Of a DNA stretch of 64,000 bases, positions 1 to 57,000 are shown piece after piece. Position numbers and translations under genes: made by a program. Source of the DNA: Spironucleus salmonicida (taxonomy: Eukaryota; Fornicata; Diplomonadida; Hexamitidae); contig CM035318.1 of assembly GCA_000497125.2 (NCBI GenBank), forward strand, positions 864,001 to 928,000, in the 5' to 3' direction. The notes beneath the pieces were generated by a model. It was not told the DNA's origin. It did not search any database and saw nothing but the letters and a program-made list of their open reading frames with translations. Position 1 is the stretch's first letter, and every line of letters starts with the position of its first letter.

Positions 1-453
1 CTGGGGAGGTACGACGAGGTCCTGCACGGGCTGGACTACCTGCGCACGCACGACTTCGTGCAGACGCTCCCGCCGCCGGCCCGGCTGGCCTTTGCGTTCC
101 AGGGGGCCGTGCCGCGCACCCACGTGTCCCAGACCGAGGAGTTCCGCATCCTCGCCGTGGAGGCCGTTGCGCTCCGGTGCTGGCTGGACGGGCGGGCCGC
201 GCAGCTTGTGGTGGACCGCGAGAAGGTGGCCCTGCCGCACGCGGCGTTCGGCTTCGAGCTCCCGGTCACCATGCAGCGGCTGGGGCGGCGCCAGGTGCGC
301 GTCGGGACCCTGCGGGCGCGGGCGGTGGTGGAGATGCAGGAGGAGGACGCCGACCACCTCGCAAAGGTGCTGCAGGTGTACCAAGACCAGTTCGCGGCGG
401 CCAGGGCGCTGGACCTCGGGCAGTGCGACCTGTACAGCGTGCTGGGCGTGTGA
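1..453 (+). CDS. LRR-type protein, C-terminal part (copy 1, cut by window start)
   Basis: This open frame enters from the window edge and ends at TGA 451-453. It matches the last 150 residues of the intact gene at 12076-13479, offset 13026. No catalytic motif was recognised in this C-terminal region; it is probably an interaction domain. It converges on the Myb-like gene with a 30-bp gap. Whether the upstream part is present cannot be seen. The function is unknown. Confidence 0.7.
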   Translation: MGRYDEVLHGLDYLRTHDFVQTLPPPARLAFAFQGAVPRTHVSQTEEFRILAVEAVALRCWLDGRAAQLVVDREKVALPHAAFGFELPVTMQRLGRRQVRVGTLRARAVVEMQEEDADHLAKVLQVYQDQFAAARALDLGQCDLYSVLGV

Positions 454-483
454 GGCCGCCCGGCGGCGTAGTGATGCATGCAG

Positions 484-693
484 TCACTCGCAGCAGGCCC
501 GCAGCAGCTTGAGCAGCTCGCCCTCCTGGGCCGGCGCGGCGTCCTTGCGCATGCGGTAGTGCTTGTTCTTGATCACGGCGACCGAGAGCCGCGGGAAGCT
601 CTCGCACCGGATGCGCTCCCACTGGCTCCCGTGGCGCTGCACGACCTGGTGGAGGCGCTCCTCCTGCTCGTAGGTCCATCGGTAGGCTGGCAT
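484..693 (-). CDS. Single-repeat Myb/SANT-like protein, 69 aa (copy 1)
   Basis: The protein has one Myb-type helix-turn-helix repeat across residues 5-49: a W..EQEERL start, then HGSQWERIR, then FPRL and VIKNKHYRM, matching the tryptophan spacing and K-N-[KR]-[HY] recognition helix of Myb/SANT repeats. That suggests DNA binding. The start is set by MPAYRW, preceded by ACTCCACA directly at the ATG as in several neighbours; a longer upstream frame is an artefact. The copy differs from the others by a few residues (VV for AV; EGE for DGE). Confidence 0.72.
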   Translation of the reverse strand: MPAYRWTYEQEERLHQVVQRHGSQWERIRCESFPRLSVAVIKNKHYRMRKDAAPAQEGELLKLLRACCE

Positions 694-835
694 TGTGGAG
701 TGGCGAGTACATTGGCGACAGGGACGCGGGCGGGTCCGACGCCGCGTGCCGTAGAAAGCAGGCGTGGGCCCGAGAATACCCCGCGATAGGGCAGTTTTTT
801 CTGCGAGTACGAGGAGCGGTGAGGAAAGGAAAGTG

Positions 836-1858
836 TCACTCGTGGTGGGCATGGCCGTGGTCGTGCCCATGATCGTGCCCGCCGGTGACCACCTCGATCA
901 CGTTGCTCACGCTGACGAGGCCGAAGCCCAGCAGCGTCCACAGCGCCCCGCCGGCGACCTCGCGCGCGGTGCCGGTGATCTCGTGGCCGAGGATCTCGAC
1001 CAGCACGATCGCCAGGAAGGTGCCCGCCGCGAAGCTCATGAAGCAGTCCTTGGTCACGTTGAAGGCCACGCCCGCCTCGCTCACGTGCGCGAGCCGCATG
1101 ACCGCGAAGGTCACCAGCTGGGCCACCGGCGTCGCGAAGGCGATGGGCAGGGCGAAGGCGAGGTTCTGGCGCCGGCTGAGCCCCTTGCGCATGCCCGCGA
1201 TCACCTGGCACGACACGTCGCACCACTTGTGCATCAGGATGGCGAGCGCCAGGAACGCGCCCTCGTGCAGGTCGGTCTGGAAGCCGAGGATCACGCCCTC
1301 GGACACGTCGTGGATCATGAGGCTGAGCATGAGCGCCTTGATGGTGGAGTCGGGCCTCACTGCGGGTGGCGCGGTGGCCTGGCAGGTCTCGGTGCAGTTG
1401 TCCGCGTCGTGGTCGTGGCAGTGGTTGTTGCGGTCCACCACGCAGGAGGGGCCGCAGTGGCCGAAGGTCATGGACGCGTGGGCCTCGCAGTCCAGCGGCG
1501 CGCTGCCGGTGTCCGAGGCCGAGGCGTTGTCGGGGTGGCCGTGGTCATGGTCGTGCCCGTGGTTGTGGCCCACCTGGATCACCACCAGCATCGCGAGGAT
1601 GCCCAGGAAGAGCACCACCGAGCTCACCGGGAAGTCCCCGCAGGCGTGGTTCAGCGCGTCCCCGGACTCGGGGATGATGTGCAGCAGCGCCACGCCCGCC
1701 AGCATGCCGCCCGAGAGGCAGTTCATCCGGCCCGTCACCCGCGTGCTCTTCGCGAGCCGCTGCACCAGGTAGGGCAGCACGCCGCCCAGCAGGGCCACCA
1801 CGAGGATCAGCAGGGCCGAGAGCGGTTGGAAGATTTCGATCGCGAGGGCGCTTGACAT
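836..1858 (-). CDS. ZIP-family divalent metal transporter, 340 aa (copy 1)
   Basis: This polytopic membrane protein is of the ZIP (SLC39) superfamily, which moves zinc or iron toward the cytosol. Membrane segments lie at about residues 10-33, 48-65 and 78-96. A His-rich loop follows (HNHGHDHDHGH), then a Cys/His cluster (about 120-155), then the metal-site helix HDVSEGVILG (about 183) and a partner helix with HKWCDVSC. The C-terminus is again His-rich. Length is normal for the family. ZIP proteins usually carry HS..EG; HD..EG here is a mild variant. It is encoded almost wholly with GC-ending codons. Confidence 0.9.
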   Translation of the reverse strand: MSSALAIEIFQPLSALLILVVALLGGVLPYLVQRLAKSTRVTGRMNCLSGGMLAGVALLHIIPESGDALNHACGDFPVSSVVLFLGILAMLVVIQVGHNHGHDHDHGHPDNASASDTGSAPLDCEAHASMTFGHCGPSCVVDRNNHCHDHDADNCTETCQATAPPAVRPDSTIKALMLSLMIHDVSEGVILGFQTDLHEGAFLALAILMHKWCDVSCQVIAGMRKGLSRRQNLAFALPIAFATPVAQLVTFAVMRLAHVSEAGVAFNVTKDCFMSFAAGTFLAIVLVEILGHEITGTAREVAGGALWTLLGFGLVSVSNVIEVVTGGHDHGHDHGHAHHE

Positions 1859-1957
1859 TGGGGGAGTGGTGCGGCGGAAAGAAAGCCGAATTTTGGGGGA
1901 ACATCTCGCGTACCGTATAATATCCTAATTCCCCGCGCCGCTCCACGCCGCCCAGTA

Positions 1958-2057
1958 TCATTCCCCACGCCGGCCGCACTCCCGCCCGGCCCCCGCCAGG
2001 AGGCGCTGCACCCGCCCGCACAGCCGCGCGTCACTGCACAGGTCGTGGGCCAGAGGT
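1958..2057 (-). pseudogene. C-terminal remnant of DPE2-like gene (copy 1)
   Basis: The last roughly 33 codons and TGA of the DPE2-like gene (compare 4551-4650) are present and then the match stops at about 2057, where the DNA becomes AT-rich. The upstream frame stays open for a while but does not resemble the GH77 domain. This is a repeat-edge fragment, not a functional gene. Confidence 0.6.
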
Positions 2058-2313
2058 GTACACGTTCTGACAAACTTTAGAAAATACTAAAATTTTAAAA
2101 CATAGATTATATGTATTTATGTATATGAAGATTCGAATGGGTAGATATTTCTGAAAAGATACAAAATCAGAAAGTAAACTGATGGATGAGATGAAAGGAA
2201 AATAATGTTTTGAAATTAAAATTATCTATTACCATCTTTATATCAAATATAATACAATATAAACCACAAATAGTAACTATAACAATATTATATAATATTT
2301 ATATTTATAAAAA
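2058..2313. promoter_or_regulatory. AT-rich upstream region of DPE2-like gene
   Basis: This AT-rich stretch holds a TATTATATAATATTTATA run about 15-35 bp before the ATG at 2314. TATATAA-type elements at this distance recur before many genes in the window. No gene is seen here. Confidence 0.45.
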
Positions 2314-4650
2314 ATGACGATCTAGTTTACTATAAATAACTACACAACATAGCTAGGCGAAAATTTATATATTATAGGATCTCTGCCAGAATTAGGTGAA
2401 AACAATATTTATAAAGCAATTCCACTAAAGTTTATAGACAACAAATGGTAAATTTAAGTTCATTTTAAATCTATCAAATCTGGGACATATAAGTATTTTT
2501 CAAACCTAAACCAGGACACGTACCTCCGAAAGCTGCCAATAATGCCCCAAAATACGACGGAAATACTTGAAATTTCGGATGATTGGTCTCCGCAAAGAAC
2601 CGACCCCTGGTACTCGGAAATTTATGATATAATACAACCGAAAACGCAGTTTAAAACTTCAATTCTTGATAATCTAAACCCAGCCGTTGAGTTCGAGGAG
2701 CAGCGGGTAATCATCCGCTGCTTCGCGGCGTACGAGGCTGGGACGCTCGAAATTTCGGGGTCCGGGAACCAGCTACTGAACTGGTCCACACGCTTTAAAA
2801 TGAACCAAATTGCACCCCGCACGTTCGAGCTGGAGCTGCTGTTCGAGCCACAGGAGGAGCCCTTTGCATTCAAATTCCTCAGGGACGGCACATACGAGGC
2901 CGGTCCCAACCGCTGCTTCTCCTACCGTCCAGGCGTGCAAGTACTAAACTGCTTCTACCGCTATGACTGCATTCCGCTGCTCCGCGTGGCCGGAATTTCG
3001 CTTGTGCGGACGCAATTTCCGCTGCAGAAAGTCGAAAAAATGGTCGATTTCGCACACAGCGCCGGTTTCAAAACCATAGCATTCCCATGCATCCATGCGG
3101 TCGACAGCAGCTTCGCGCTCGATCACGCAGTATTCGGCCTCGATGATGCCAGTGTACGCGCCGAATTCGACCGAATTCCGCTCTTCGAGCGCGTGGAAAG
3201 CACAATATAGCGCGTTCAGCGCAGCACATCGCTGTGCTACTGGCTTCCCGGCTACGCTGTCTACCGCGCCGTCTAGGGCGATCCTGACCTTCTCGGCAGC
3301 TTCGCGACGGACCGCGAGCGCGAAGGCTTCATAAGCCGCGTTTTCTTCACCGAAAAGCGCTTCCAGAGCGCGTATTTCGTAGCGTTTGAGCAGCTGCTGT
3401 TGCATGAGCTCCTGGAAACGGCCGTGCGCTACGCGCACGCGAACGGCATATTCCTGACCGGCGAGTTCTCGTTCACGATACCACGCAAGTCGCACAATTT
3501 GTGGCAGTTCGGACGCTTCTATACGCAGGGCTCGCAGGGTGCCGTGGACCTCGAGGCGCGCACGTCCTGCAATTTGAACTGTCCGGTGCTGAACTGGGGG
3601 AGCCTCAAGGAGGCCAATTACGTGTTTCTGCAGCACCAGATCTCGCAGTTGGAGCAGTACTTCAAGCACGTCGTACTAGCGACCTCCGAGCAGTTCTTCA
3701 GGACGTGGGAAATACCGGCAGAGTGCTTCCGCACAAACGGGCGCTTGGGGCGCTTTTCACCTGCGAATCCGATCCAAATTTCGAGCATTCCGGTGCACAA
3801 CCCACAGCGGCTCGTGCTGCCGAATCTGGCGATTTCGCACCTCGTGCCAGCCGTGATCAGCCGTGAGCAGGGGCAGCGGCTGGTATCGCTGGATATTCTG
3901 ACTGTTAAAGGCGATTCCTACGAGTTCCAAATGAGCGAAAAAGCGGCATGTAAGCTCCTGCACGATCAGCCTGTTTTGCAGGAATCCGTGCAAAAGATCA
4001 ACGGAAATCGCTGCATGGCGCCTGATCTCGCATACCCGCTGCTGAACTGCCACCCACTCATCCAGAACTAGCTGCAGTGCAGCGAAACGGCGTTTTTCAA
4101 AAGCCTCAGCCAGGCCGAGCAGGACGTCTTGCGTGGCATTTCGGGAAACTACTTCTGGAATCAGCACTGCTGCTGGATTGCGCGCGGCCACGAGCGATTA
4201 CAGTGGCTCCAGGGCATCGGCCAGGTCTTGTTTTCGTGTCGTGGTAGGAGCGAGCACTAATTTGAGGCTGAGTTCCTGAAATAAGGGATTTTGCTCAGCA
4301 ATCAGTTTCAGTTTCAGGGCAGCTCTGCCAGGGGGTGGATGAGCCTTACTGAAAGCAACATCTCATTTCGTGACAGTTTACTCGAGTAAAAATTTCGTGT
4401 TGATGAGTATATTAAGTCTATTAGTGGTGAAAGAAACTCGTAGAATTCTACAAAAGACAAAATAAAGATACTAATGACAGAAATGCTTAACTCAGATTCT
4501 ATGATCACTTTGGTACACTTGGATGATATTATCTCGCTGGCCGACGGCACGCCTCTGGCCCACGACCTGTGCAGTGACGCGCGGCTGTGCGGGCGGGTGC
4601 AGCGCCTCCTGGCGGGGGCCGGGCGGGAGTACGGCCGGCGTGGGGAATGA
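2314..4650 (+). CDS. Catalytically dead DPE2-like protein (2x CBM20 + GH77), 778 aa
   Basis: With TAA/TAG as Gln, one frame runs from ATG 2314 to TGA 4648-4650. Residues 1-75 match the first starch-binding CBM20 module of the DPE2 at 34109-36745 (NNYT start, YIIGSLPELG), a second CBM20 follows (WSPQRTDPWY), then a GH77 fold. The GH77 motif FRIDHVLGWFRIWEIP is replaced by an aligned block with Ala (about residue 456) at the nucleophile Asp; GEDLG becomes SCRGRSE and the HD pair becomes SN. The C-terminus still aligns (DLCSDARLCGRV). It is probably a glucan-binding pseudoenzyme or scaffold. GC content jumps within the gene, AT-rich at 2314-2500 and 4330-4530. The family is secure; the non-enzymatic role is inferred. 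Confidence 0.82.
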
Positions 4651-4685
4651 TACTGGGCGGCGTGGAGCGGCGCGGGGAATTAGGA

Positions 4686-4698
4686 TATTATACGGTAC
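4686..4698 (+). promoter_or_regulatory. Core promoter-like element TATTATACGGTAC before ZIP
   Basis: TATTATACGGTAC lies 52-64 bp before the ZIP ATG and recurs exactly 24-36 bp before the 352-aa gene at 46867 (and its mirror at 26176). The ZIP copies at 1858 and 14884 carry it too. This recurrence before unrelated genes suggests a core promoter element. Confidence 0.55.
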
Positions 4699-4749
4699 GC
4701 GAGATGTTCCCCCGAAATTCGGCTTTCTTTCCGCCGCACCACTCCCCCA

Positions 4750-5772
4750 ATGTCAAGCGCCCTCGCGATCGAAATCTTCCAACCGCTCTCGGCCCTGCTG
4801 ATCCTCGTGGTGGCCCTGCTGGGCGGCGTGCTGCCCTACCTGGTGCAGCGGCTCGCGAAGAGCACGCGGGTGACGGGCCGGATGAACTGCCTCTCGGGCG
4901 GCATGCTGGCGGGCGTGGCGCTGCTGCACATCATCCCCGAGTCCGGGGACGCGCTGAACCACGCCTGCGGGGACTTCCCGGTGAGCTCGGTGGTGCTCTT
5001 CCTGGGCATCCTCGCGATGCTGGTGGTGATCCAGGTGGGCCACAACCACGGGCACGACCATGACCACGGCCACCCCGACAACGCCTCGGCCTCGGACACC
5101 GGCAGCGCGCCGCTGGACTGCGAGGCCCACGCGTCCATGACCTTCGGCCACTGCGGCCCCTCCTGCGTGGTGGACCGCAACAACCACTGCCACGACCACG
5201 ACGCGGACAACTGCACCGAGACCTGCCAGGCCACCGCGCCACCCGCAGTGAGGCCCGACTCCACCATCAAGGCGCTCATGCTCAGCCTCATGATCCACGA
5301 CGTGTCCGAGGGCGTGATCCTCGGCTTCCAGACCGACCTGCACGAGGGCGCGTTCCTGGCGCTCGCCATCCTGATGCACAAGTGGTGCGACGTGTCGTGC
5401 CAGGTGATCGCGGGCATGCGCAAGGGGCTCAGCCGGCGCCAGAACCTCGCCTTCGCCCTGCCCATCGCCTTCGCGACGCCGGTGGCCCAGCTGGTGACCT
5501 TCGCGGTCATGCGGCTCGCGCACGTGAGCGAGGCGGGCGTGGCCTTCAACGTGACCAAGGACTGCTTCATGAGCTTCGCGGCGGGCACCTTCCTGGCGAT
5601 CGTGCTGGTCGAGATCCTCGGCCACGAGATCACCGGCACCGCGCGCGAGGTCGCCGGCGGGGCGCTGTGGACGCTGCTGGGCTTCGGCCTCGTCAGCGTG
5701 AGCAACGTGATCGAGGTGGTCACCGGCGGGCACGATCATGGGCACGACCACGGCCATGCCCACCACGAGTGA
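4750..5772 (+). CDS. ZIP-family divalent metal transporter, 340 aa (copy 2)
   Basis: Protein identical to copy 1 and intact. It sits 99 bp downstream of the DPE2-like gene on the same strand and 142 bp before the Myb-like gene. The start is set by the CACTCCCCCA run directly before the ATG. Three near-identical copies in 15 kb could raise dosage of metal uptake, if all are expressed. Confidence 0.9.
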   Translation: MSSALAIEIFQPLSALLILVVALLGGVLPYLVQRLAKSTRVTGRMNCLSGGMLAGVALLHIIPESGDALNHACGDFPVSSVVLFLGILAMLVVIQVGHNHGHDHDHGHPDNASASDTGSAPLDCEAHASMTFGHCGPSCVVDRNNHCHDHDADNCTETCQATAPPAVRPDSTIKALMLSLMIHDVSEGVILGFQTDLHEGAFLALAILMHKWCDVSCQVIAGMRKGLSRRQNLAFALPIAFATPVAQLVTFAVMRLAHVSEAGVAFNVTKDCFMSFAAGTFLAIVLVEILGHEITGTAREVAGGALWTLLGFGLVSVSNVIEVVTGGHDHGHDHGHAHHE

Positions 5773-5914
5773 CACTTTCCTTTCCTCACCGCTCCTCGTA
5801 CTCGCAGAAAAAACTGCCCTATCGCGGGGTATTCTCGGGCCCACGCCTGCTTTCTACGGCACGCGGCGTCGGACCCGCCCGCGTCCCTGTCGCCAATGTA
5901 CTCGCCACTCCACA

Positions 5915-6124
5915 ATGCCAGCCTACCGATGGACCTACGAGCAGGAGGAGCGCCTCCACCAGGCCGTGCAGCGCCACGGGAGCCAGTGGGAGCGCATCCG
6001 GTGCGAGAGCTTCCCGCGGCTCTCGGTCGCCGTGATCAAGAACAAGCACTACCGCATGCGCAAGGACGCCGCGCCGGCCCAGGATGGCGAGTTGCTCAAG
6101 CTGCTGCAGGCCTGCTGCGAGTGA
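5915..6124 (+). CDS. Single-repeat Myb/SANT-like protein, 69 aa (copy 2)
   Basis: Same gene as 484-693 in opposite orientation, with residues AV and DGE in place of VV and EGE. It has the ACTCCACA leader at the ATG and ends at TGA 6122-6124, 30 bp from the convergent LRR-protein tail. Confidence 0.72.
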   Translation: MPAYRWTYEQEERLHQAVQRHGSQWERIRCESFPRLSVAVIKNKHYRMRKDAAPAQDGELLKLLQACCE

Positions 6125-6154
6125 CTGCATGCATCACTACGCCGCCGGGCGGCC

Positions 6155-6739
6155 TCACACGCCCAGCACGCTGTACAGGTCGCACTGCCCGAGGTCCAGC
6201 GCCCTGGCCGCCGCGAACTGGTCTTGGTACACCTGCAGCACCTTTGCGAGGTGGTCGGCGTCCTCCTCCTGCATCTCCACCACCGCCCGCGCCCGCAGGG
6301 TCCCGACGCGCACCTGGCGCCGCCCCAGCCGCTGCATGGTGACCGGGAGCTCGAAGCCGAACGCCGCGTGCGGCAGGGCCACCTTCTCGCGGTCCACCAC
6401 AAGCTGCGCGGCCCGCCCGTCCAGCCAGCACCGGAGCGCAACGGCCTCCACGGCGAGGATGCGGAACTCCTCGGTCTGGGACACGTGGGTGCGCGGCACG
6501 GCCCCCTGGAACGCAAAGGCCAGCCGGGCCGGCGGCGGGAGCGTCTGCACGAAGTCGTGCGTGCGCAGGTAGTCCAGCCCGTGCAGGACCTCGTCGTACC
6601 TCCCCAGCCGCGCGTAGAAGCGCTCCAGCGCCTCGCGCGCAGTGAGCACGGGCTCCGGCTCGCTTTGCGGCGCGGCCTCTGCGTCCTCCTCCGCCTCCGA
6701 CTCGCTGCTCGGGGCTGCCGCTGGCCGGGGGATGGGCAT
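6155..6739 (-). pseudogene. 5'-truncated LRR-protein gene (copy 2)
   Basis: The frame matches the C-terminal 193 residues of the intact gene at 12076-13479, but homology ends at about 6735 where an ATG happens to sit in frame. The leucine-rich-repeat half is missing. A shortened protein could still be made from that ATG, but truncation by the repeat junction is the simpler reading. Confidence 0.65.
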
Positions 6740-7455: not shown

Positions 7456-8079
<624 letters not shown>

Positions 8080-12075: not shown

Positions 12076-13479
12076 ATGCCAGTAGTGACCACAATTGCTG
12101 ACCTGAAAAATATCCAGCCACCACGCACAGTCACGTTCCAGCCATAAATAGATATACCAATACAGCTCACTCAGCTGCACACCATACTAATCTCATCACA
12201 ACTACAGGTTATCCTAGACCTCTCCCTCACTACAAATTTTCAAGATTGCCTGGCACCACTCTAGAACGCCCTCAATACGAACAGGGTATGTGCTTTGTCA
12301 CTTGCAGGCGTGAAAATATCTTCCTCGCAGTTTCGGGCGCTGAACTTGAACACGATCAGGGAGCTCGATATTTCCTGGACGGGGCTGCGCATGGCACAAG
12401 TCAACGCGCACAATATCGAGACACTCTACGTTCAAGGCCTCGATCTGCGGGGGTTTTCGACGGCGAATTTGCCTAAGTTGACCGAGCTGGACTTCTCGTA
12501 CGCGGCGAACTGCGAGATACCCCTTACGGGGCTGCGCAAAGTGGTAGCGTGCGGTGTGAAACTTGACTTTGAGGGGCTTCGGGGAGTTGAAAATGTCGAG
12601 GTCTCTGCTGCGACGCAGCGAGAGCTCAAGAGCCTCTGCAAGAGCCGGCATCTGGACAGCTTCGTGGCCTACCAGGACGGCGGAGCAGACCTGGGGATCC
12701 TGGCGGCTAAGTACCCAGGGGTTGCCGTCCAGGACCACTTTTAGGAGGAGGCGGCGCCCGACCTTTTCGCGTACCGCGGCGGGTCCGAGGACGTGCTCTT
12801 CGGCCTAGAGCCGCCCCACGTGAATCTGGCGTACCAGAGCCGGCACGACGAGTTCTTCGCGCTCTCGCGGCTCGAGGAGCAGGCGTGCGTCTGCGCACCC
12901 ATCCCCCGGCCAGCGGCAGCCCCGAGCAGCGAGTCGGAGGCGGAGGAGGACGCAGAGGCCGCGCCGCAAAGCGAGCCGGAGCCCGTGCTCACTGCGCGCG
13001 AGGCGCTGGAGCGCTTCTACGCGCGGCTGGGGCGGTACGACGAGGTCCTGCACGGGCTGGACTACCTGCGCACGCACGACTTCGTGCAGACGCTCCCGCC
13101 GCCGGCCCGGCTGGCCTTTGCGTTCCAGGGGGCCGTGCCGCGCACCCACGTGTCCCAGACCGAGGAGTTCCGCATCCTCGCCGTGGAGGCCGTTGCGCTC
13201 CGGTGCTGGCTGGACGGGCGGGCCGCGCAGCTTGTGGTGGACCGCGAGAAGGTGGCCCTGCCGCACGCGGCGTTCGGCTTCGAGCTCCCGGTCACCATGC
13301 AGCGGCTGGGGCGGCGCCAGGTGCGCGTCGGGACCCTGCGGGCGCGGGCGGTGGTGGAGATGCAGGAGGAGGACGCCGACCACCTCGCAAAGGTGCTGCA
13401 GGTGTACCAAGACCAGTTCGCGGCGGCCAGGGCGCTGGACCTCGGGCAGTGCGACCTGTACAGCGTGCTGGGCGTGTGA
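12076..13479 (+). CDS. Leucine-rich-repeat protein, 467 aa (intact copy 3)
   Basis: Under UAR=Gln the frame runs from ATG 12076, after a TATAATTATTATACAT element, to TGA 13477-13479. Residues about 45-200 hold irregular LRRs (LNTIRELDISWTGL, NLPKLTELDFSYA). An acidic Ser/Glu linker follows at about 275-295, then the C-terminal region shared with copies at 1-453 and 6155-6739. LRRs imply protein-protein contact. The first 210 bp are AT-rich with TAA/TAG codons, the rest GC-rich. Only this copy is full length. Confidence 0.75.
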
Positions 13480-13509
13480 GGCCGCCCGGCGGCGTAGTGA
13501 TGCATGCAG

Positions 13510-13719
13510 TCACTCGCAGCAGGCCTGCAGCAGCTTGAGCAACTCGCCATCCTGGGCCGGCGCGGCGTCCTTGCGCATGCGGTAGTGCTTGTTCTTGATC
13601 ACGGCGACCGAGAGCCGCGGGAAGCTCTCGCACCGGATGCGCTCCCACTGGCTCCCGTGGCGCTGCACGGCCTGGTGGAGGCGCTCCTCCTGCTCGTAGG
13701 TCCATCGGTAGGCTGGCAT
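13510..13719 (-). CDS. Single-repeat Myb/SANT-like protein, 69 aa (copy 3)
   Basis: Protein sequence as copy 2, with the same ACTCCACA leader and convergent arrangement with the LRR gene. Confidence 0.72.
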   Translation of the reverse strand: MPAYRWTYEQEERLHQAVQRHGSQWERIRCESFPRLSVAVIKNKHYRMRKDAAPAQDGELLKLLQACCE

Positions 13720-13861
13720 TGTGGAGTGGCGAGTACATTGGCGACAGGGACGCGGGCGGGTCCGACGCCGCGTGCCGTAGAAAGCAGGCGTGGGCCCGAG
13801 AATACCCCGCGATAGGGCAGTTTTTTCTGCGAGTACGAGGAGCGGTGAGGAAAGGAAAGTG

Positions 13862-14884
13862 TCACTCGTGGTGGGCATGGCCGTGGTCGTGCCCATGATC
13901 GTGCCCGCCGGTGACCACCTCGATCACGTTGCTCACGCTGACGAGGCCGAAGCCCAGCAGCGTCCACAGCGCCCCGCCGGCGACCTCGCGCGCGGTGCCG
14001 GTGATCTCGTGGCCGAGGATCTCGACCAGCACGATCGCCAGGAAGGTGCCCGCCGCGAAGCTCATGAAGCAGTCCTTGGTCACGTTGAAGGCCACGCCCG
14101 CCTCGCTCACGTGCGCGAGCCGCATGACCGCGAAGGTCACCAGCTGGGCCACCGGCGTCGCGAAGGCGATGGGCAGGGCGAAGGCGAGGTTCTGGCGCCG
14201 GCTGAGCCCCTTGCGCATGCCCGCGATCACCTGGCACGACACGTCGCACCACTTGTGCATCAGGATGGCGAGCGCCAGGAACGCGCCCTCGTGCAGGTCG
14301 GTCTGGAAGCCGAGGATCACGCCCTCGGACACGTCGTGGATCATGAGGCTGAGCATGAGCGCCTTGATGGTGGAGTCGGGCCTCACTGCGGGCGGCGCGG
14401 TGGCCTGGCAGGTCTCGGTGCAGTTGTCCGCGTCGTGGTCGTGGCAGTGGTTGTTGCGGTCCACCACGCAGGAGGGGCCGCAGTGGCCGAAGGTCATGGA
14501 CGCGTGGGCCTCGCAGTCCAGCGGCGCGCTGCCGGTGTCCGAGGCCGAGGCGTTGTCGGGGTGGCCGTGGTCATGGTCGTGCCCGTGGTTGTGGCCCACC
14601 TGGATCACCACCAGCATCGCGAGGATGCCCAGGAAGAGCACCACCGAGCTCACCGGGAAGTCCCCGCAGGCGTGGTTCAGCGCGTCCCCGGACTCGGGGA
14701 TGATGTGCAGCAGCGCCACGCCCGCCAGCATGCCGCCCGAGAGGCAGTTCATCCGGCCCGTCACCCGCGTGCTCTTCGCGAGCCGCTGCACCAGGTAGGG
14801 CAGCACGCCGCCCAGCAGGGCCACCACGAGGATCAGCAGGGCCGAGAGCGGTTGGAAGATTTCGATCGCGAGGGCGCTTGACAT
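13862..14884 (-). CDS. ZIP-family divalent metal transporter, 340 aa (copy 3)
   Basis: Same 340-aa protein as copies 1 and 2, with at least one silent difference (GGC for GGT at about 14395). The TATTATACGGTAC element and the CACTCCCCCA leader are conserved. Intact. Confidence 0.9.
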   Translation of the reverse strand: MSSALAIEIFQPLSALLILVVALLGGVLPYLVQRLAKSTRVTGRMNCLSGGMLAGVALLHIIPESGDALNHACGDFPVSSVVLFLGILAMLVVIQVGHNHGHDHDHGHPDNASASDTGSAPLDCEAHASMTFGHCGPSCVVDRNNHCHDHDADNCTETCQATAPPAVRPDSTIKALMLSLMIHDVSEGVILGFQTDLHEGAFLALAILMHKWCDVSCQVIAGMRKGLSRRQNLAFALPIAFATPVAQLVTFAVMRLAHVSEAGVAFNVTKDCFMSFAAGTFLAIVLVEILGHEITGTAREVAGGALWTLLGFGLVSVSNVIEVVTGGHDHGHDHGHAHHE

Positions 14885-14983
14885 TGGGGGAGTGGTGCGG
14901 CGGAAAGAAAGCCGAATTTCGGGGGAACATCTCGCGTACCGTATAATATCCTAATTCCCCGCGCCGCTCCACGCCGCCCAGTA

Positions 14984-15106
14984 TCATTCCCCACGCCGGC
15001 CGCACTCCCGCCCGGCCCCCGCCAGGAGGCGCTGCACCCGCCCGCACAGCCGCGCGTCACTGCACAGGTCGTGGGCCAGAGGCGTGCCGTCGGCCAGCGA
15101 GATAAT
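14984..15106 (-). pseudogene. C-terminal remnant of DPE2-like gene (copy 3)
   Basis: The last 40 codons match 4528-4650. Upstream of GATAATAT the sequence is unrelated AT-rich DNA; an in-frame TGA lies at 15230-15232 and no ATG lies between, so this is a fragment left at the repeat edge. Confidence 0.65.
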
Positions 15107-15237
15107 ATTATTAAACCTAATTTTGATAATCTGCTCAATAAAGACAGCTTTTTCAACTATAAATTAATATAACAATAGTATATAAAAGTTTATTTACTAT
15201 TATTTTAACGAAAAGTAGATAAATTAATGTCATTCAC

Positions 15238-55127: not shown

Positions 55128-55776
55128 ATTATTTTGTTACTATACACGCAAATGCTACCAATTTTTAAATTTGTTCTTATTGAAATAGATAAATCTTATC
55201 ACAAAAAAGTTATACCGTTTCTTAATAAAGATTATAAAAATTATAATGAATTAAGTAATATTAGTGTATTGTAAATTAAGTATTGAAACAGCTATAATAT
55301 ATTGATAATATATGAACTATATAAGGAAGATAATATTTATTTTTAGTAGATTTAGTTTGACACTATTCACCTGTTTCTCACAACAACTTCATTATAAAAT
55401 CTCATACACTACTACATTTTATTTTTAATACTTAAAACGTATTGTACTTATTATTAAGTAGTGACATGACAATTATTTAGTATATGAAGTAGCATCTATG
55501 ATTATATAACTTGAACACTGTGTAACGAGTTTGCAAAATAATGTGAACAAATTAGATTTATAAATTCAATATGACGTATATAATATGAGCAAGCTAGTTA
55601 TCTTTTTTTATTTCAATGCTTATTAGTTTATTTGTAACTATTGCAACATTATAACAATATTAGATATTATATTTCTGCTTCTAAAACATAAACCACAAAC
55701 ATTAAATTTTATCAATAGTTACACTAAAATATAATAAATTAAATATATTATCAAATCAATCAAACCATTCCTTCAA
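55128..55776. other. AT-rich region upstream of PGK
   Basis: A 44-codon frame at about 55151 (MLPIFKFVLIEIDKS) is open but unsupported. TATAATAAATTAAATATATT lies 20-45 bp before the PGK ATG. Confidence 0.4.
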
Positions 55777-57000
55777 ATGGACTTCAACAAGTTATCTATT
55801 AAGGACGTTGATGTTAAGGATAAAGCTGTATTTATCCGTGTTGATTACAATGTCCCACAGGATGATGCCGGCGTTATTACCAATACTGCTCGTATAGATG
55901 CCTCTATCCCCACCATCCAGCATGTATTAAACAGCCATCCTAAGTATATTGTTTTATGCTCTCATTTGGGTCGTCCTAAAGGTACTGGCTTTGAACAGAA
56001 GTTTTCTATGAAGCCCGCTTCTGAAGCTCTTGCAAAGATTTTAGGTAAGCCCGTCACTCAGCTTGAAGATGTAGTTGGCCCTAAGGTTGAAGAAGCACTC
56101 AAAAATGCTAAGTAAGGTGAGATTTTCATGCTTGAAAATGCTCGTTTCTATAAGGAAGAAACAAACGAAAACGAACAAGATGAAACAGTTAAGACTTTCA
56201 GAAAGAATCTCAAAGCTTTAGCTGATATCTATTGTGATGATGCCTTCGGTACTGCTCACAGACCTCATTCTTCTATGGTTGGTGAAGGTTTTGATATCCG
56301 TTGTGCTGGTTTCCTTTTACAAAAAGAAATTGATTACTTCAAAATCGCTCTTGCTGAACCAAAGAAGCCTTATCTCGCCATTCTCGGGGGTGCTAAGATT
56401 TCTGATAAGACTAAGCTCATCCATAATCTCCTCCCAAAGGTTGATAAAATCATTCTCTGCGGTGGTATGGCTTACGCTTTCCTTAAGAAACAGGGTATGA
56501 CCATTGGTAACTCCCTTTATGATCCTAAGTGTGACGCTGATGTTGAAATCATCATCAAAAAGGCTGCTGAGCTCAAAGTTGAAATCATCCTCCCAATAGA
56601 TTTCAGATGTACTCAGGATTTTAAGAACGATGCTGAAATGAAAATTTTCACCAAGGAATAAGGGATTCCTGATGGCTGGGAAGGTTTAGATGCTGGACCA
56701 AAGTCTGAGGAAGTTTTCAAAAAGGCTGTCTTAGATTCTAAGACTATTATTTGGAATGGTCCCGCTGGTGTTTTCGAATTCGCCAACTTCGCCAAAGCTA
56801 CTTTTGCTATTTGTGATGCTTGCGTTGAAGCTACCACTAAAGGTGCTATCACCATTATCGGTGGTGGTGACTCTGCTACTGCTGCTAAGAAAGCTAAGGC
56901 CGTTGACAAGCTTTCCCACGTTTCCACTGGAGGTGGTGCCGCTCTTGAACTCCTTCAGGGTGATATTTTACCTGGTGTTGCGAGATTATCTAACAAGTGA
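55777..57000 (+). CDS. pgk: Phosphoglycerate kinase, 407 aa
   Basis: Glycolytic enzyme making ATP and 3-phosphoglycerate from 1,3-bisphosphoglycerate. RVDYNVP with [10 protein letters not shown] (substrate site), [33 protein letters not shown] and [11 protein letters not shown] (nucleotide site) are all present, length normal. Two TAA codons (residues 113 and 295) sit at KNAKQGEIF and TKEQGIPDGW, where Gln fits the family. Regular, GC-moderate codon use suggests high expression. Confidence 0.97.

Follow-up and report, generated by a model that had tools for sequence, protein, structure and literature searches.

A gene near one end of a 64,000-nucleotide stretch of the genome of the diplomonad Spironucleus salmonicida (contig C3, 864001-928000; the window) encodes P0001, a relative of the disproportionating enzyme DPE2 that has kept the architecture of this 4-alpha-glucanotransferase but has lost its catalytic acids. 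A second protein of this kind, P0004, is encoded on another contig of the same genome, which was searched as 14.47 Mb in 37 contigs. There is roughly an even chance that, within the DPE2 family of diplomonads, the two proteins represent an ancient lineage of pseudoenzymes, whose members would bind glucan and perhaps act as non-catalytic partners of DPE2. Both have what defines a pseudoenzyme: they are homologous to an enzyme, their catalytic residues are lost, and canonical counterparts (P0002 and P0003) are encoded in the same genome. If real, this would be a small and testable metamonad case of a dead carbohydrate-active enzyme that has been retained for its binding modules.

The loss of catalysis was assessed against 124 DPE2-type proteins, comprising P0002, P0003, 118 further matches of P0003, and four matches of P0001. 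Three of them are canonical diplomonad enzymes (P0002, P0003, and P0009 from Hexamita inflata) and the other 121 come from outside the diplomonads. The matches of P0003 that were used are the 120 listed out of 5354, and the set is a biased sample of GH77; P0010, because of its length (613 amino acids), and P0128 stand outside the counts. The nucleophile of the FRIDH motif, an aspartate in all 124 proteins, is Ala456 in P0001. The glutamate of GEDLG, equally invariant (124/124), is absent at the aligned place, EDLG being gone after residue 640. The place of the GTHD aspartate holds no acid in P0001 (TES at residues 679-681), and is an aspartate in 123 of the 124 proteins. The remaining one, P0044, has THV for THD with the other two acids intact, and is possibly another dead or altered DPE2. 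Also missing from P0001 are two active-site loops (SxGxGEF and NDT...SYPY), most of the GAPPD..GQNW motif, and the conserved arginine that precedes the nucleophile.

This comparison confirms the loss of all three catalytic positions that had been proposed in a first-pass annotation of the window. The replacement of the aspartate by alanine stands as described there, while the exact pairings given for the other two sites ('SCRGRSE' for GEDLG, and 'HD to SN') are aligner-dependent and shift between MAFFT modes. The loss itself is robust: an acid falls on a catalytic place in none of the three runs that include P0001. P0001 has the GH77 fold but lacks the three acids of an active GH77 4-alpha-glucanotransferase.

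The architecture is otherwise preserved, and the two CBM20 modules and GH77 frame reported by the annotation are all found. Pfam recognises the first CBM20 and part of GH77 (residues 309-476, E 6e-11), and the second CBM20 is supported by alignment and by predicted strands at residues 130-214. The fold is predicted with confidence, with a largely intact GH77 barrel. The large insertion in GH77 that characterises DPE2 is present, since the distance between WEIP and the GEDLG position is 174 residues, as compared with 184-188 in P0002, P0003, and P0009. Consensus residues are kept at eight of nine positions in CBM20-1 and six of seven in CBM20-2. W157, K187, and an aromatic residue ahead of E195, whose role is known from other CBM20s, are retained in CBM20-2.

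A GH77 family search of the genome finds four places: P0002, P0003, P0001, and C5:838158-838481, which lies inside the frame of P0004. As judged from its sequence, P0004 is a second degenerate DPE2 paralogue that shares the loop losses of P0001; it goes beyond what the annotation had observed. It comprises both CBM regions, the N-terminal half of GH77, and a short C-terminal part, with no catalytic motif. The distance from WEIP to the GEDLG position is only 19 residues, so that about 165 residues are gone, and with them the DPE2-type insertion. The NCBI entry for this protein (100% identity and coverage) is named '4-alpha-glucanotransferase [Spironucleus salmonicida]', an activity that P0004 cannot have by the known mechanism despite the deposited name. 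Searches of the genome with P0001 and P0004 gave no further full-length member, and only two short stubs of the P0001 3' end.

It could be argued that these proteins are divergent enzymes with an altered mechanism or substrate, given the largely intact barrel predicted for P0001 and the presence of E459, E647, and E680 at sequence positions close to the missing motifs. This is very improbable when three acids, two loops, the arginine before the nucleophile, and most of GAPPD..GQNW are all gone, and when P0004 lacks such a large part of the second half of GH77. The model of P0004 is similar to the CBM20 of STBD1 (8x8k_C; Foldseek template modelling score 0.76 by target length, root-mean-square deviation 2.1), and residues 139-185 match the AMPK-beta glycogen-binding module (AMPK1_CBM, E 5.5e-5) with 23.7 bits, short of the 26.8 used as cut-off; in the genome search this locus scores 27 bits together with neighbouring matches. 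STBD1 and AMPK-beta differ from P0004 in having no GH77 part.

P0001 and P0004 are likely to descend from one loss of catalysis that was followed by duplication, because both active-site-loop losses are common to the two proteins and occur in none of the 124 compared proteins. The spacing between a conserved glycine and a conserved aspartate, constant at 27 throughout the set, is 18 in P0001 and 20 in P0004, and that between a conserved aspartate and a conserved serine, constant at 34, is 20 in both. The resulting 14-residue gap appears at the same place (within one residue) in five of six runs in which P0001 or P0004 was aligned without the other. The two proteins also have 13 of 86 rare residues in common, where 5.6 (standard deviation 2.2) are expected and 13 of 5000 shuffles do as well. 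After removal of residues carried by the diplomonad enzymes, the excess is weaker but persists (10 of 67; null 4.4, standard deviation 2.0; 57 of 5000 shuffles).

Selection on the two proteins is suggested by several lines of evidence. Consensus residues were defined as those present in at least 90% of the 121 non-diplomonad proteins, which gives 16 positions in CBM20 and 172 in GH77. P0001 keeps 14 of the former and P0004 keeps 11, similar to P0002 (10), P0003 (11), and P0009 (12). In GH77, P0001 keeps 57 and P0004 keeps 43, as opposed to 129, 127, and 133 in the three canonical enzymes. The contrast between CBM20 and GH77 is significant in the dead proteins only (p 2.9e-5 for P0001 and 0.0006 for P0004), and it recurs with the two placed separately, independently of one another, on a fixed alignment (14/16 versus 59/173 for P0001, and 12/16 versus 39/173 for P0004). 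In a rough neutral simulation carried to 25% identity, a mean of 10 to 12 in-frame TGA codons arose, and 0 of 100 runs stayed TGA-free at each of three GC settings. The canonical P0002 gene served as a stand-in for the ancestor. Indels were ignored; they would add to the disruption of the frame. By this simulation, neutral drift alone does not account for the open frame of P0001. The selected, non-enzymatic role proposed by the annotation thus gains support from the survival of the frame through extreme divergence, the retention of CBM20 alongside the loss of GH77 residues, the confident fold, and the existence of a second dead paralogue. The data support constraint over much of the history of P0001 and P0004, though not necessarily in the present day.

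A number of observations weigh against an old, selected branch with a single origin. Those that concern the origin would fit two independent catalytic losses from two DPE2 copies. P0001 and P0004 are 23% identical, which does not exceed their identity to the canonical enzymes (22-25%). The fraction of rare residues in common with P0003 (28 of 117 for P0001 and 15 of 68 for P0004) is larger than that between the two proteins (13 of 86), with slightly different rarity counts. A two-residue insert before FSL, which both proteins have in the joint alignment and none of the 124 others has, recurs in only two of six separate alignments. A maximum-likelihood tree of 28 rows does not place either protein, and its end branches of 5.72 and 5.9 are flagged as long branches meeting. 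Independent losses nevertheless seem improbable, since they would have to remove a net 14 residues from one loop at an identical place in both proteins, together with an overlapping loss of the GIG loop, and would leave the excess of shared rare residues to be explained. One loss followed by duplication is favoured.

Other counter-evidence concerns function and age, and part of it would be consistent with decaying paralogues under relaxed or no selection, P0001 being a pseudogene of recent date whose frame is still open and whose surroundings are duplicated and unstable. The 3' end of P0001 (from position 4549) is inside a rearranged, near-identical inverted repeat, the gene stands between the arms of that repeat, and two stubs of the 3' end are found close by. 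The branch in the tree is extremely long, P0004 went on to lose further residues between WEIP and the GEDLG position, and 194 pseudogenes are reported for the genome as a whole (PMC9509377). The second half of P0004 is weakly predicted (predicted local distance difference test score below 50 at residues 477-505). The LGNW tryptophan of CBM20-1, whose role is known from other CBM20s, is missing from P0001, as it is from the canonical P0002, P0003, and P0009. No orthologue of P0001 or P0004 was found outside this genome by protein searches that are limited by shared five-residue words. P0001 gave four matches besides itself, of which the two named ones are bacterial; a search with an alignment of P0004 and P0001 (7996 candidates scored) returned P0004 and one jgi protein only; and the match lists hold no degenerate orthologue from Hexamita inflata, although the species is in the database searched, being the source of P0009. 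All the same, decay is the less likely account, although selection may have been relaxed recently. Open frames at 22-25% identity are unexpected under neutrality, the fold of P0001 is still confidently predicted, and the contrast between CBM20 and GH77 is a selective one. In addition, P0001 and P0004 agree at 0.49 of second codon positions (0.27 expected) despite saturation at fourfold sites (0.27, with 0.25 expected), though the latter number only 26, which tells against this comparison.

A foreign origin of P0001 was considered and rejected: the inserts found only in diplomonads are present, and among the compared proteins its rare residues are shared most with P0003, P0002, and P0009.

The uninterrupted 778-codon frame reported by the annotation was recovered at exactly its coordinates, from an ATG at 2314 to a TGA at 4648-4650. 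Eleven of its codons are reassigned stops (TAA or TAG) read as glutamine, and the frame is open only under this Hexamita code and broken under table 11. The reading is legitimate because the code is the organism's own, TGA being the sole stop codon used in S. salmonicida according to PMC3916229. The same applies to P0002, P0003, and P0004, which are likewise readable only with TAA and TAG as glutamine, and the five other frames across the gene contain 5 to 22 TGA codons each. A run of A residues ahead of start codons is a feature described for S. salmonicida in PMC3916229, and one immediately precedes the ATG of P0001. An artefact of the wrong code or of collapsed repeats might be suspected from the need for reassigned stops and from the repeats at the 3' end. 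It is scarcely credible in view of the organism's code (PMC3916229), the position of all three catalytic sites before 4549 and thus outside the repeat arm, and the same picture from P0004, which is on a different contig and present in NCBI.

The evidence points strongly to the following course of events. A DPE2 copy lost the SxGxGEF and NDT...SYPY loops and the catalytic acids, and was then, in all likelihood, duplicated into P0001 and P0004. Both descendants stayed open and kept their CBM20s, with most of the GH77 scaffold in P0001 and a shortened one in P0004. The function under selection might be glucan binding through the CBM20s, the dead GH77 body offering a docking or dimerisation surface. 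A protein of the P0001 type could thereby sit on glycogen and hold or tune the active DPE2s, with glycogen phosphorylase or debranching enzyme as possible further targets, much in the way that ISA2 is a partner of ISA1. A scaffold or regulator role of P0001 is a plausible hypothesis. It is tempting to go further and speculate, tentatively, that in S. salmonicida a DPE2 copy gave rise to a family of subunits that dock on glycogen, have no catalytic activity, and assemble with the two canonical DPE2s. If true, this would be a GH77-based form of glycogen regulation by dead enzymes, a protist counterpart of plant ISA1/ISA2 that evolved independently in another enzyme family.

The isoamylase ISA2 belongs to GH13, and not to GH77. 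In plants it is a non-catalytic paralogue and partner of ISA1 in glucan metabolism, as described in PMC12510319. It resembles P0001 and P0004 in that it is a conserved paralogue, with no working catalytic site, of an enzyme that acts on glucans, and coexists with active paralogues. The two cases differ in that ISA1 binding has been shown for ISA2, whereas for P0001 and P0004, known from sequence, partner binding is putative. For plant DPE2, PMC3789958 describes a homodimeric enzyme in which CBM20-1 confers starch binding. P0001 has the domain order, fold, and insertion region of DPE2, together with the diplomonad-specific inserts of P0002, P0003, and P0009, but is without any of the three catalytic acids and without two loops of the active site. 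No paper was found on GH77 or DPE2 pseudoenzymes, on inactive paralogues of disproportionating enzymes, or on a Spironucleus glucanotransferase, in a search that left most subscription journals outside. Among potential partners, the genome has matches to glycogen phosphorylase (one), debranching enzyme (two, of equal score), and AMPK-type CBM loci. The two debranching-enzyme matches, one on a large contig (G000:C4:111034-112302) and one on a high-numbered contig (G000:C32:1738-3006), have identical scores, and may be a duplicate or an unplaced repeat.

The canonical P0002 and P0003 are 53% identical and, from their intact motifs, are predicted to be active enzymes. P0003 is encoded on contig C1, is 901 amino acids long, and keeps every motif. 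P0009 is its closest named relative among the matches listed (41% identity). The annotation had placed P0001 beside an active DPE2, but roughly 29 kb separate it from P0002, which is encoded on the opposite, minus strand. An adjacent or paired arrangement of the two genes was accordingly rejected, position being the only link examined.

Coordinates are collected in Table 1. The repeat arms at either side of P0001 differ at 7 of 2059 positions, and the third copy of the repeat unit differs from 4523-6736 at 4 of 2214; the ZIP transporter gene that the unit carries was tested on the left copy. The match to the P0001 3' end covers 34 codons in the left arm. The third copy matches over 48 codons at 83%, about 41 of them within the near-identical part. 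The right arm is likely to be the source of the copies, because it is continuous with the full P0001 gene. GC content at third codon positions is 0.65 in P0001 and 0.27-0.42 in the canonical DPE2 genes. The value for P0001 fits the high GC content given for duplicated regions of this genome (44.7% versus 30.7%) in PMC9509377.

Table 1. Positions of P0001, its parts, and related features (window coordinates unless a contig is named)
Feature	Position	Strand	Basis or remark
P0001, degenerate DPE2 paralogue, 778 amino acids	2314..4650	+	CBM20-1, CBM20-2, and GH77 frame without catalytic acids
A-run immediately 5' of the P0001 ATG	2309..2313	+	sequence
CBM20-1 of P0001, residues 2-66	2317..2511	+	Pfam, E 1e-11
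CBM20-2 of P0001, about residues 130-214	2701..2955	+	alignment and predicted strands; no Pfam match
GH77 part of P0001, about residues 227-771	2992..4626	+	alignment, predicted fold
Left arm of inverted repeat	1..2059	-	ZIP gene copy (836-1858) and stub of P0001 3' end (1961-2062, -)
Right arm of inverted repeat	4549..6607	+	last ~34 codons of P0001 and ZIP transporter gene (4750-5772)
Third ZIP-unit copy	12898..15111	-	stub of P0001 3' end (match 14987-15130)
Canonical DPE2 P0002, 878 amino acids	34109..36745	-	FRIDH, GEDLG, and GTHD intact
P0004, degenerate DPE2 paralogue, 548 codons	G000:C5:837240-838886 (L004:583-2229)		

Further inverted repeats of 2.6-3.7 kb are found in the window at 25042-28715/44328-48001 (13 mismatches) and 47098-49699/50045-52646 (6 mismatches), and another, 30422-33012/37374-39964 (1 mismatch), flanks P0002. 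An array of about 156 AATC units occupies 7459-8078; the plus strand at 7501-8000 has C and no G, and the array is not the TAGG telomere repeat. A phosphoglycerate kinase frame at 55498-57000 carries about 100 residues ahead of its Pfam match (101-488 of 500).
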